In this document: in pieces, positions 37,622-56,375 of the stretch | Layout: each line of letters starts with the position of its first letter | Position numbering within the stretch: the first letter of the stretch is position 1 | NCBI GenBank assembly: GCA_001442925.1 | Contig: LDXX01000001.1 | Span: 1-64,000 of the forward strand | Direction: 5' to 3' | From: Candidatus Kryptonium thompsonii | GTDB taxonomy: Bacteria > Bacteroidota > Ignavibacteria > Kryptoniales > Kryptoniaceae | DNA length: 64,000 nucleotides | The notes under the pieces: model-generated | The model's database searches: none | The model's input: the letters and a program-made list of their open reading frames with translations, nothing else | What the model was told of the DNA's origin: nothing | Made by a program: the position numbers and the translations under genes

Positions 37622-38974
37622 TCACTTCCTATTATTAACAATTCTATATCTTGTACCTGGCATGGATGTTTCACCACACCAACCCTTGATATAACTGAGT
37701 TGAAATAATAACACTAATAACGTACTCGTATAACTTATAAGAGAAACCAATGCAGCTCCCATAATTCCGAATCTCGGTAAAAGAACTGAAAGTCCTAACA
37801 CAGTTATTACCAAACCGATCAATTCAGCATAAAGAACATTTTGCGGCCGACCGAGACCATGTAAGCAATAGCCTAATACACCATTAACACTAGACACCAT
37901 AGCTGCACAAACAAGTATTAATGCTACCCAAGTTGCAGATACAAATTCTGAGCCAAACAATAAAGATATTCCTAAAGGGGTTATTGATAGCTGGATAATT
38001 CCTAATAACGCAGCCATCAGTACAGCTTGACGTAGAATTTTTTTTACCATTTGCAATTGTAATTCCTCCGGTAAGGCAGATATTCGAGGAAAGGCCACAC
38101 CGCCAACCGCCCAAATTATGGGACTAAGACCATAAGCCCAACTTGCCGCTACTGCGTAGAGCCCCAAAGCTGTAGAAGACAACATATTCGCCATGAGTAA
38201 CTGGTCTAATCTAAGATTTAGTTGACGAGGTCCATTTGATAAAACAGAAAAAATACCATATCGAACCATATTCCGCAAACGACCAACTTCCAGTGTAAAC
38301 GGGCCTGAAATACGGCGCAAAGCTAAATAGCCAAAAAGGCAGGCAAGTCCACCGCTCACAGCAAGGATAAAGTAAGATATAACCTCGGCCGAGGGCTTAT
38401 TGACCCTTGCATATAGTATCCCCAACAATGTACCGCTAAATACGCTCAACGCATTAAATAGGCGCATCAAATTCCATAACCTAAATTCCTGCAGTCCTTG
38501 CAAAACCTGAGAAGAGATTGCTACGAAAAATGACAACGGAACATACAACAGGAAAATCTGAGCAGCACGGATTATCTCATAGCGCTGAGCATTTAGAAAC
38601 ACTGGGAGCAGAAAATATGAAAGTAACAAAAAAGGGAATACAGAGATTAGGGCAATCAGTAAGACAAGAACAAATATCGTACCAGCCGCACGCGGTTCAC
38701 GTCCTACAAAGTAAGTAGCCGCTTCTGGCATCCCCAAATGTCCAAACGTAGCTAACAACATCGGCCATATTTGAATAGCTACTAACTCCCCACGCCCATT
38801 AGCTCCCAGAACACGGGCCAATAGTATTCCACTTATTAGTGTGAGTCCCATAAACACAATATTTGTAGCTACCGTGAGCACCAGATCAAAATCAAGCGAA
38901 GCTACCCGGCCACTTAAAGGCTTTGAAAGCTGGCGCAAAACTATTTTCGGCAATATATAATTTTTTATTAACAT
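37622..38974 (-). CDS. Polysaccharide flippase (Wzx-like, MOP superfamily)
   Basis: A 450-residue membrane protein with about 12-14 hydrophobic segments. LTLISGILLARVLGANGRGELVAIQIWP is the conserved first-helix pattern; ARVNKPSAEVISYFIL and LNLRLDQLLMANMLSSTALGLYAVAAS are further family segments. It exports lipid-linked repeats built by the locus, and is the second flippase in the window. ATG 38974 is my choice; TTG 39001 also opens the frame. It is the first intact gene downstream of the ops-type leader, and its codon use is less AT-rich than the flanking genes. Confidence 0.88.
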   Translation of the reverse strand: MLIKNYILPKIVLRQLSKPLSGRVASLDFDLVLTVATNIVFMGLTLISGILLARVLGANGRGELVAIQIWPMLLATFGHLGMPEAATYFVGREPRAAGTIFVLVLLIALISVFPFLLLSYFLLPVFLNAQRYEIIRAAQIFLLYVPLSFFVAISSQVLQGLQEFRLWNLMRLFNALSVFSGTLLGILYARVNKPSAEVISYFILAVSGGLACLFGYLALRRISGPFTLEVGRLRNMVRYGIFSVLSNGPRQLNLRLDQLLMANMLSSTALGLYAVAASWAYGLSPIIWAVGGVAFPRISALPEELQLQMVKKILRQAVLMAALLGIIQLSITPLGISLLFGSEFVSATWVALILVCAAMVSSVNGVLGYCLHGLGRPQNVLYAELIGLVITVLGLSVLLPRFGIMGAALVSLISYTSTLLVLLFQLSYIKGWCGETSMPGTRYRIVNNRK

Positions 38975-39606
38975 CGATAACTTCAAGCCCTTTAAAATCA
39001 AACCATGCTACTCAACAAGCACTAAACTTGCCAAGACTAGCTATTGATAGTTTCACGTATTGTCCTTCCCTTGATTGTTTTTATATGCCTTCCTCCTTCA
39101 ACCAACCCTCTTTCTTCTTAATGACATTAAAAGTGCACAAACCAAATCTGCTATCAGAATTTTCACCTTTTGCTTTTGAAGGGTTCTAAAATGTATTTTA
39201 TTGAGAGTTTTTCCTCTGTGATATCCACTGTGATATCCACCATTATCATTTCACAAGTTGATTAATAGTTACCATTTATCAACAGGACATGCTCAGTCTA
39301 ACCACATTAGTTTCCTTCAATGCGTTTTTGTTTATATAAAAATGGCTTAATTGCCGTCTCTATTTCTATATAATCCCCCTTTCAGAATAGCTCCTTGCTC
39401 TTTTTCTACATAGTACAGCAAGTATTTTATTTTTTCTTTAACCATTATTTCGCAATTTTGATCTTTCCATAGTTCCTATGATGCCAGATAAAGCCTCTCA
39501 CTGAAAAATTTCCTCCAGCCATATTCACTATCTGGCTTCCTGATATGCAGAATCTCTTTGTGAGCACTTCGAATTAGTTTTTATATTTCTTTTTGTTACA
39601 ACTGCA
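38975..39606 (-). other. Long untranslated leader of the polysaccharide operon
   Basis: About 700 bases separate the predicted transcription start (near 39681) from the first intact gene. On the minus strand 39480-39570 reads RSAHKEILHIRKPDSEYGWR and continues to a stop, with more coding-like sequence beyond, suggesting a lost first gene. There is also an exact 12-base tandem duplication at 39216-39239. I see no intact gene. Confidence 0.55.
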
Positions 39607-39618
39607 CACGCTACCGCC
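39607..39618 (-). promoter_or_regulatory. ops-like element in the operon leader
   Basis: The minus strand reads GGCGGTAGCGTG, an exact match to the enterobacterial ops element that makes RNA polymerase pause and recruit the NusG paralogue RfaH. It lies about 65-75 bases downstream of the predicted start and is preceded by a GGGAG-N9-CTCCC stem-loop. It faces the long polysaccharide operon, as ops does in E. coli. No RfaH-like gene is in the window. Confidence 0.6.
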
Positions 39619-39687
39619 ATTGGGAGCCCCTTGCTCTCCCCAAAATTTAAAACCGGTATGTGATAGTAAGTTAACACCAAAATTCAG

Positions 39688-39715
39688 TGTATAATATAAT
39701 ATCAATTCTTGTCAA
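39688..39715 (-). promoter_or_regulatory. Sigma-70-type promoter for the polysaccharide operon
   Basis: On the minus strand TTGACA (39715-39710) and TATACA (39693-39688) are separated by 16 bases. Start would be near 39681. This is the best promoter I can see in front of the minus-strand locus. Confidence 0.65.
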
Positions 39716-39848: not shown

Positions 39849-39922
39849 GCGCCTGTAGCTCAACCGGATAGAGCGTGGGCCTCCGGAGCCCAAGGCTGCG
39901 GGTTCAAATCCCGCCAGGCGCG
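39849..39922 (+). tRNA. tRNA-Arg (anticodon CCG)
   Basis: A full cloverleaf can be drawn: acceptor GCGCCTG/CAGGCGC, D arm GCTC/GAGC, anticodon stem TGGGC/GCCCA with loop CTCCGGA (anticodon CCG), T arm GCGGG-TTCAAAT-CCCGC, discriminator G. CCA is not encoded. It reads the rare Arg codon CGG. It borders the polysaccharide locus, whose other end is tmRNA. Confidence 0.97.
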
Positions 39923-39960
39923 CTTAAAAATTAACATATCAAAAATAAAAAACCTTACCC

Positions 39961-40677
39961 ATGAAACTATCCGTAAATGTCGACCATGTCGCAACACTCC
40001 GCGAAGCAAGGGGAGGACTCGAACCAGACCCTGTAACAGCTGCTCACATAGCAGAACTCGCAGGAGCCGACGGAATCGTCTGTCACCTCAGAGAAGATAG
40101 AAGACATATAAATGACAGAGACCTTCGCCTCCTTAGAGAAACTATAAAGACAAAACTTGACCTTGAAATGGCTGCAACTGAAGAGATGATTAAAATCGCA
40201 ATTGAAACTCTCCCCGATCTTGTGACGCTTGTCCCGGAAAGAAGGCTTGAGAGAACAACTGAACAAGGTTTAAATGTAATTGAACAAATATCATATCTTT
40301 CCGATGTCGTAATGGAAATGCATAAACATGATATAAAAGTCAGCTTGTTTGTCAACCCAGATCCAAAACAAATCGAAGCATCCGCAAAGACAGGTGCCGA
40401 CTTCGTCGAAATTCACACTGGCGAATACGCAAACGCAAGAGATGAGAAAAGACAATTTGAAGAACTTCAAAAGATAAAAGAAGCAGCAAAACTTGCAAGA
40501 CGACTCGGCTTGGGTGTAAACGCTGGACATGGATTGAACTATCTAAATGTCATACCTATAACAAAGATAGAAGAAATTGAAGAATTAAGCATTGGACATG
40601 CGATCGTGGCAAGAGCTATCTTCGTCGGATTTGAAAGGGCAGTAAGAGAAATGGTCAGACTTGTAAAAGGAATATAA
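39961..40677 (+). CDS. pdxJ: Pyridoxine 5'-phosphate synthase
   Basis: Condenses 3-amino-2-oxopropyl phosphate with deoxyxylulose 5-phosphate to pyridoxine 5'-phosphate (DXP-dependent vitamin B6 route). Motifs are [15 protein letters not shown] at the start, [14 protein letters not shown] with the catalytic His, TLVPERR with the catalytic Glu region, and [11 protein letters not shown]. The 238-residue length is standard. It begins 38 bases after tRNA-Arg and shares its transcript. PLP made here serves the PLP enzyme encoded next. Confidence 0.97.
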
Positions 40678-55007: not shown

Positions 55008-56375
55008 TTAATTTTTCTCTCGATCTTTCCGTGAAAGGATAATTTTGCGATACTTTCTCACCGCTCTCAAGTGCTCATCATAGGTTCTGGAAAATATATG
55101 TCTTCCACTTCCATCGGAAACAAAATACAAAAACTTGTTCTTTTCTGGATATAGAACAGCAAGAATTGAACTTCTTCCAGGGTTATTGACTGGTCCAGGG
55201 GGCAAACCCTGCCTTAAATATGTGTTATATGGCGATTCAATTTTTAAATCTTTGTAAAACAATCTCCTTGGACCATCTGGAATTATGTATTGAATTGTTG
55301 GATCAGCTTCAAGTGGCATTTTAAGTCTTAAGCGATTGAAATATACTCCAGCAATTCTTGGTTTTTCATCGTCAAATCTCGCTTCACCCTCAACTATTGA
55401 AGCAAGCGTAACAACTTGATGCGTGTTTAACCCAACAACTTTTTCTCTTTTCTTCAAACTATCGTTGTAAAATTCTTTAAACTCCGAAACCATTTTCTCT
55501 ATTATATTTTCCTCGTCATCTCCCCAAATGAAAATGTATGTATCCGGCATTAGATAACCCTCAAGCCCATTCGCTTCTATTCCGAGCTTGCGTGCAAAAT
55601 CTGGGTCGTTCACAAGTTTCATGAATTTTGTTGAGTCAATTCCAACTTTTGCCTTCAATATCCCTGCTATCTTCTTTGCCATCGTTCCCTCTGGAATTGT
55701 AACGCTCACGGATAGAACATAGTTTGGATTTGTTATTTCTATAATCACGACAGCCATTGGCAAGTTATCAACGAAGATATATTTTCCAGCTTTCACCTTT
55801 TTATCAAAACCAAATACTTTCCCAACATAATAAAAAAGGGTTTTGCTTCTCAAAAGATTTTCAGAACTTAAAATGTTGACAACCTGTTTAAATGGCGTAT
55901 TTTTGGGGATTTCAACAAGGACAAACCTAGTGGGTGGAAGTTCAAGCATAAAGAATTGACGATTAAAAAAATATATGAGCAAGAGAAACAATAATAGAAC
56001 AAACTTTTTGATGAGATTTTTTCCGTTGTATAGTGCTGACGAATTTATATGCGTTGTGATTTTGTCTTTTAATTTTTGCCTTTGCTCAGCTGATTCTCTC
56101 TCAAGTCGTCTTGATTCATCAATTATCCTTTCATACAATCTTTTGATAGCCATATCGGATAAAGGTCCGTAATTGTGTTTTACAACATTTTGTATCACTT
56201 GAGCCTCCCTTTCAGGGGAGTATATAGGTAAATTTAACTCTTCTTTAATTTTTCCAATTTCGTTTGCATACCTTGCCCTTCTGTTCAATAGTTTAACTAT
56301 CTTTACATCAATTTTATCAATTTTTCTTCTCCATTTTTCGATATCGTTTTTATCCTTTCGCTTCAACCAACCCAT
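55008..56375 (-). CDS. Chorismate mutase (AroQ)-MltG endolytic transglycosylase fusion
   Basis: One 455-residue frame joins two unrelated domains. Residues 15-100 are an AroQ-type chorismate mutase (IDKIDVKIVKLLNRRARYANEIGKIK, SPEREAQVIQNV, IKRLYERIIDESRRLE), with the usual Arg/Lys positions. A linker and a membrane helix (FVLLLFLLLIYFFNRQFF, ~125-142) lead to MltG/YceG: VTIPEGTMAKKIAGIL, VTLASIVEGEARFDDEKP (catalytic Glu), LEADPTIQYIIP, PYNTYLRQGLPPGPVNNPG. The mutase would face the cytoplasm and MltG the periplasm. Gene order trpA then fusion fits an aromatic-pathway origin for the front part. Confidence 0.9.
   Translation of the reverse strand: MGWLKRKDKNDIEKWRRKIDKIDVKIVKLLNRRARYANEIGKIKEELNLPIYSPEREAQVIQNVVKHNYGPLSDMAIKRLYERIIDESRRLERESAEQRQKLKDKITTHINSSALYNGKNLIKKFVLLLFLLLIYFFNRQFFMLELPPTRFVLVEIPKNTPFKQVVNILSSENLLRSKTLFYYVGKVFGFDKKVKAGKYIFVDNLPMAVVIIEITNPNYVLSVSVTIPEGTMAKKIAGILKAKVGIDSTKFMKLVNDPDFARKLGIEANGLEGYLMPDTYIFIWGDDEENIIEKMVSEFKEFYNDSLKKREKVVGLNTHQVVTLASIVEGEARFDDEKPRIAGVYFNRLRLKMPLEADPTIQYIIPDGPRRLFYKDLKIESPYNTYLRQGLPPGPVNNPGRSSILAVLYPEKNKFLYFVSDGSGRHIFSRTYDEHLRAVRKYRKIILSRKDREKN

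Follow-up and report, generated by a model that had tools for sequence, protein, structure and literature searches.

In the RfaH/ops system of Enterobacteriaceae, the 12-nt ops element stands just behind a hairpin, 60-70 nt downstream of the promoter of a long surface-polysaccharide locus, and is read by a trans-acting factor encoded elsewhere; the rfb and waaQ leaders of E. coli display this same order of hairpin and then ops. The known logic of ops requires a loop and a pyrimidine-G pause ending (PMC5995543). RfaH is mostly limited to Proteobacteria, with one occurrence in 1,908 Bacteroidota genomes, and both the recognition of ops and the acquisition of R73 are described as late events in the descent of RfaH (PMC7593976). 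UpxY of Bacteroides is likewise a NusG paralogue of Bacteroidota that serves polysaccharide loci, but its genes sit in the operon they control and a defined ops is lacking. LoaP of Bacillus and Firmicutes is also a specialised NusG paralogue for long clusters, and no use of ops is known for it.

The window analysed here, i.e. the whole stretch of 64,000 nucleotides, belongs to Candidatus Kryptonia, which are placed within Bacteroidota by GTDB. Candidatus Kryptonia are hot-spring bacteria (PMC4737851). The locus described below shares with the enterobacterial system an ops identical in 12 of 12 positions, a hairpin just before it, a promoter 60-70 nt upstream, a long surface-polysaccharide locus and, putatively, a trans-acting factor encoded elsewhere. 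It differs in that the factor gene, nusG2, follows wzc, in that the upstream half of JUMPstart is absent, and in belonging to another phylum. No earlier report of an ops with a NusG partner in this phylum was found in open PMC papers.

The ops leader and the polysaccharide locus

The minus strand of the window reads ...TTTTGGGGAGAGCAAGGGGCTCCCAATGGCGGTAGCGTGTGC... around positions 39607-39618, where GGCGGTAGCGTG matches the ops core at all 12 positions (G1 39618, G5 39614, T6 39613, T11 39608, G12 39607), as an earlier note on this DNA had claimed. The loop GGTA closed by C3:G8 and the pyrimidine-G at positions 11-12 are present, and both are invariant in all sites. GGCGGTAGCGTG is the sole exact copy in the window, where ~0.008 copies are expected by uniform base composition, and also the sole exact copy in the 2.59-Mb genome, where ~0.3 are expected; genome-wide uniqueness of ops alone therefore proves little. 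The argument from chance made in the earlier note is thus sound for the window and weak for the genome.

A sigma-70-like promoter (TTGACA ... TATACA/TACACT) is predicted at 39686-39715(-), with TTGACA starting at 39715. Counted from the first base of the -35 box, ops begins 97 nt downstream, about 70 nt past the promoter and roughly 60 nt past the expected start site; the earlier note had estimated 65-75 bases after the promoter. The small stem-loop noticed before ops is a hairpin, GGGAG-AGCAAGGGG-CTCCC, with a 5-bp stem at 39622-39640(-), which ends 3 nt before ops; by energy alone it is weak, and its stability is not unusual.

The leader from ops to the first gene spans about 600 nt (39002-39606, minus strand). 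It contains a remnant of a sugar epimerase gene at 39482-39535(-), which in a tblastn search is 89% identical, along 18 aa, to the gene that opens the operon of one relative (G003). On the evidence of this remnant, the leader seems to have been retained through an exchange of the genes behind ops.

The first gene encodes a Wzx-type flippase (37622-39001, minus strand; Pfam Polysacc_synt 1.7e-14). It opens a co-directional polysaccharide locus of ~31 kb, from 39001 down to 7828 on the minus strand, in accordance with the long locus claimed earlier, and the element lies in the leader of this locus, with transcription predicted from the promoter and an operon-length transcript being putative. Apart from Wzx, the locus encodes a methyltransferase, Wzy, glycosyltransferases, heptose-type sugar genes, epimerases, sugar-nucleotide enzymes, Wzi, a UDP-sugar dehydrogenase and rhamnose-type genes. 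Its conserved flank, formed by tRNA-Arg(CCG) at 39849-39923(+) and pdxJ at 39961-40677, is common to three relatives (G001, G002 and G003). Elsewhere in the window, an ORF at 55008-56375(-) encodes an unusual fusion of a chorismate mutase type II domain (15-92) with a YceG/MltG domain (154-441).

Conservation of the leader within the genus

The genus was compared in seven genomes, i.e. the window genome (G000) and six relatives (G001-G006). The ops leader is present in five copies in four species (one each in the window genome, G001 and G003, and two in G002), and all five precede polysaccharide genes. A sugar-nucleotide epimerase is located behind ops in G002 and G003, and a UDP-sugar dehydrogenase, a flippase and Glf in G001 (contig 8 of Candidatus Chrysopegis kryptomonas JGI-23). 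A chance match is rejected because of this conservation. The earlier check for the 12-mer ahead of polysaccharide loci in relatives is thereby answered in the affirmative, the element being either exact or in the G10A form.

The five leaders share GGGAG-N7-9-CTCCC, AAT and then GGCGGTAGC[G/A]TGT; the homologous leaders also have TTGACA/TTGACT ... TATATT about as far from ops, and in all five the -35 box begins 97-107 nt ahead of ops. The 21-nt core (CTCCCAATGGCGGTAGC[G/A]TGT; in the window CTCCCAATGGCGGTAGCGTGT at 39606-39626, minus strand) has a mean pairwise identity of 0.97 in the five copies, as against 0.34 just downstream of the core and 0.39 upstream of the hairpin. When three or fewer mismatches are allowed, the 21-mer matches only these five places in the genus, and its reversed control matches none. 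On contig 14 of G002, a Candidatus Kryptonia MAG, two complete promoter-hairpin-ops leaders are found at about 6048 and 6978, 930 bp apart; a short coiled-coil/nuclease-like gene lies in the interval.

In G004, G005 and G006 no ops match was found, though NusG2 is present in them, and the AATGGCGGTAG matches in these genomes, considered as a hidden ops, are coding. G005 is 71% complete, the contig of G004 ends at pdxJ, and G006 (97% complete) has no polysaccharide operon at the pdxJ-flanked place.

A second site of the window genome, AATGGCGGTAGCACG at C10:36101-36115(-), is intergenic and matches ops in 11 of 12 positions, with T11C. It has its own TTGACA...TATATT and is located 40 bp ahead of a polysaccharide operon that runs in the same direction for at least 13 kb; the operon is akin to the ops operon of G001. 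Neither of the natural variants, G10A and T11C, touches the loop, and both retain pyrimidine-G at the pause. With at most one mismatch, AATGGCGGTAGCRTG occurs at two sites in this genome, both directly before polysaccharide operons, while its reversed-pattern controls gave no site in the seven genomes. A further candidate, C3:219476 (GGCGGTAGCGTA), was discarded, as it has no hairpin and its context reads as coding.

Pairing of the GGGAG/CTCCC stem is retained in each of the five close copies, without covariation among them, so the support for the hairpin comes from its constant position with changed sequence. On contig C10 the stem is GCGA/TCGC with an inner 4-bp helix; it ends at the same AAT, folds better than shuffled sequences (z -3.3), and differs from GGGAG/CTCCC in sequence, one pair having changed from G-C to C-G. 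An ATTGGG/CCCAAT stem occupies the same place in Vibrio harveyi and Wenzhouxiangella.

A hairpin followed by a consensus-like pause might, with no NusG paralogue involved, serve to couple transcription to translation or to fold the RNA, and ops does match the consensus elemental pause (PMC5995543), at a distance from the hairpin that would fit a hairpin-stabilised pause. However, it is chiefly the ends that the pause consensus fixes, whereas the RfaH-read centre GGTAGC is invariant in six sites, and a paralogue with the RfaH-type TRGV contacts is present; a role as pause site only is therefore improbable. The conserved letters can also be read as the start of a short ORF, ATG GCG GTA GC[G/A] TGT (MAVAC...), whose translation would govern the operon. 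All five copies in the genus read MAVAC, and a base that varies among them is synonymous, at a third codon position, but the two other alanine/valine wobble positions are invariant and CTCCCA, upstream, is conserved to the same degree as the supposed codons. Conservation also ends after codon 5, the peptides being 5, 8, 13, 24 and 30 aa long with no common tail, the second site on C10 continues after MAV with GCA CGC (Ala-Arg), and the ops of E. coli is the same 12-mer without ATG. Control by a leader peptide is thus very unlikely.

Occurrence outside the genus

Among 84,980 species, CCCAATGGCGGTAGCRTG was found in 13 records, against ~15 expected by uniform chance, so that the number alone carries no meaning. 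Four of the 13 (L130, L131, L140 and L141), all outside Kryptonia, sit in leaders of exopolysaccharide genes; a fifth outside Kryptonia (L136) lies near a NusG paralogue, and several other records lie inside coding frames. In L141 a NusG paralogue directly precedes ops, and one deltaproteobacterial genome has a second copy of ops before a sugar aminotransferase gene. The four leaders, from deltaproteobacterial MAGs, Wenzhouxiangella and Vibrio, resemble those of Kryptonia in having a hairpin, CCCAAT and GGCGGTAGC[G/A]TG before EPS genes. The NusG paralogues of their genomes group with RfaH (98/93) and not with the Kryptonia clade.

The ops of the two deltaproteobacterial MAGs reads GGCGGTAGCATG. 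In L130, L140 and L141, which are non-enteric Proteobacteria, a small winged-helix (MarR-like) regulator follows ops and heads the polysaccharide genes. The AATGG before ops gives a MAVAC frame in the five Kryptonia leaders and in L130, L131, L140 and L141, and the frame is unconserved past codon 5.

A wide distribution of ops in the class of Kryptonia was considered and rejected, as exact 12-mers outside the genus are nearly all coding, have no hairpin and are not commoner than the reversed control. No ops match was found in viral contigs.

The NusG paralogue and its relationship to known families

The earlier note had proposed a search for a NusG paralogue away from ribosomal genes, and one is present. 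The window genome has only two NusG-domain genes, nusG in secE-nusG-rplK-rplA and nusG2 on contig C6, where nusG2 stands behind the gene of a Wzc-type kinase and has no linkage to the window. NusG2 (173-180 aa) is found in all seven genomes of the genus, with 69-87% identity to the copy of the window genome. The wzc-nusG2 unit is syntenic in six of the seven, with flhF on one side and the gene of a conserved membrane protein on the other; in G005 the contig starts inside nusG2.

NusG2 is only ~21-26% identical to RfaH, with which it has K10, F56 and T72-R73-G74-V75 in common, and it also keeps W4, Q13 and P52 (RfaH numbering). Of the ops-contact residues of RfaH (K10, H20, R23, Q24 and R73), it lacks the pocket residues H20, R23 and Q24 (having Y/W, S/L/F and A instead); the RfaH of Vibrio harveyi likewise lacks R23. 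Of E48, I93 and F130, which belong to the autoinhibition of RfaH by its alpha-helical C-terminal domain, E48 and F130 are not kept, and the KOW of NusG2 looks NusG-like. The Rho-contact loop of NusG, I-F-G, is replaced by S-M-D in NusG2 of all seven genomes. R73 is missing from NusG and from each of the 24 other paralogues of Bacteroidota in the comparison. Of five proteobacterial paralogues taken from ops-bearing genomes, three have it (Vibrio, Wenzhouxiangella and L130). The UpxY-like proteins of the order and class of Kryptonia are without TRGV.

Since nusG2 is unlinked to the ops locus, its pairing with ops is one that we infer. That ops is read by canonical NusG or another factor, with NusG2 acting elsewhere, e.g. 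only on wzc or at other sugar loci, would suit the three genomes (G004, G005 and G006) with NusG2 and without ops, as well as the wzc-nusG2 leader, in which a search for ops found none, but it is very unlikely given that canonical NusG lacks K10/R73 and retains the Rho loop and that the genome has no third NusG-domain gene.

NusG2 remains below the cut-offs of the RfaH, UpxY and LoaP families. Its scores against the two RfaH models are 84.7 bits (TIGR01955; cut-off 144.5) and 67.4 bits (NF006534; cut-off 124). The score against UpxY (NF033644) is similar, 88.1 bits with a cut-off of 100, and that against LoaP (NF033641), 58.2 bits with a cut-off of 125, is far below. By position too NusG2 differs from UpxY, which heads the polysaccharide operon it controls, as nusG2 is a single gene that stands after wzc on another contig and is accompanied by an exact ops. 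Membership of the leader in the JUMPstart RNA family (RF01707) was rejected; with the covariance model it scores 15.0 bits (threshold 35; E. coli rfb 60), the alignment covering no more than the ops tail and a few letters at the 5' end. That the system works like RfaH is well supported; membership in the RfaH, UpxY and JUMPstart families fails the score tests.

In the phylogenetic tree, NusG, RfaH, the other Bacteroidota and Kryptonia form four separate groups, with 100/100 support for the Kryptonia clade. In topology tests, a joining of NusG2 to the RfaH or the Bacteroidota group was not rejected, and its joining to E. coli and Vibrio gave a p-AU of 0.06. A recently transferred RfaH gene was also considered; no relative above 35% identity is present in 395 genomes of the phylum, and none above about 31% among the plasmid matches listed. 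The transferred control cassette suggested in the earlier note is thus not supported as a recent RfaH transfer, because NusG2 is a syntenic core gene with a score below the RfaH cut-off and a clade of its own.

Proposed mechanism and significance

By its sequence, conservation and placement, ops of Kryptonia is best explained as a genuine recruitment-type site, from which pausing, binding, exclusion of Rho and readthrough would follow. We consider ops-paused, RfaH-like processive antitermination, run by an orphan NusG lineage with NusG2 as the reader, to be the probable mode of action, with a probability of about 0.78. Of the RfaH-type reading offered in the earlier note, antitermination is retained as the best explanation, as ops is conserved and a NusG paralogue is present, while membership in the RfaH family by score is not.

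According to this model, RNA polymerase would start at the promoter near 39680 and transcribe the short hairpin, and would then pause with the RNA 3' end at T11/G12 of ops, after the E. coli model (PMC5995543). With 13 nt between its end and the paused 3' end, the hairpin may stabilise the pause. The exposed non-template strand would display the GGTA loop with its C3:G8 closing pair, leaving G5 and T6 readable. NusG2, made in trans from the wzc-nusG2 unit, would bind the paused polymerase at ops, exclude the housekeeping NusG and stay on the polymerase, and Rho-dependent polarity would be suppressed over the ~600 nt of untranslated leader and the ~31 kb of the locus.

As to origin, we lean slightly towards an independent or very old lineage of NusG paralogues in Kryptonia, which would read the same 12-mer via a partly different pocket; the ops code would then be convergent or older than the RfaH family. 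A conserved exact ops, accompanied by a NusG paralogue that falls outside the RfaH clade, offers a natural test of the residues needed to read ops, and also of whether the ops code arose more than once. It further puts a name to a regulon of an uncultured lineage from hot springs.
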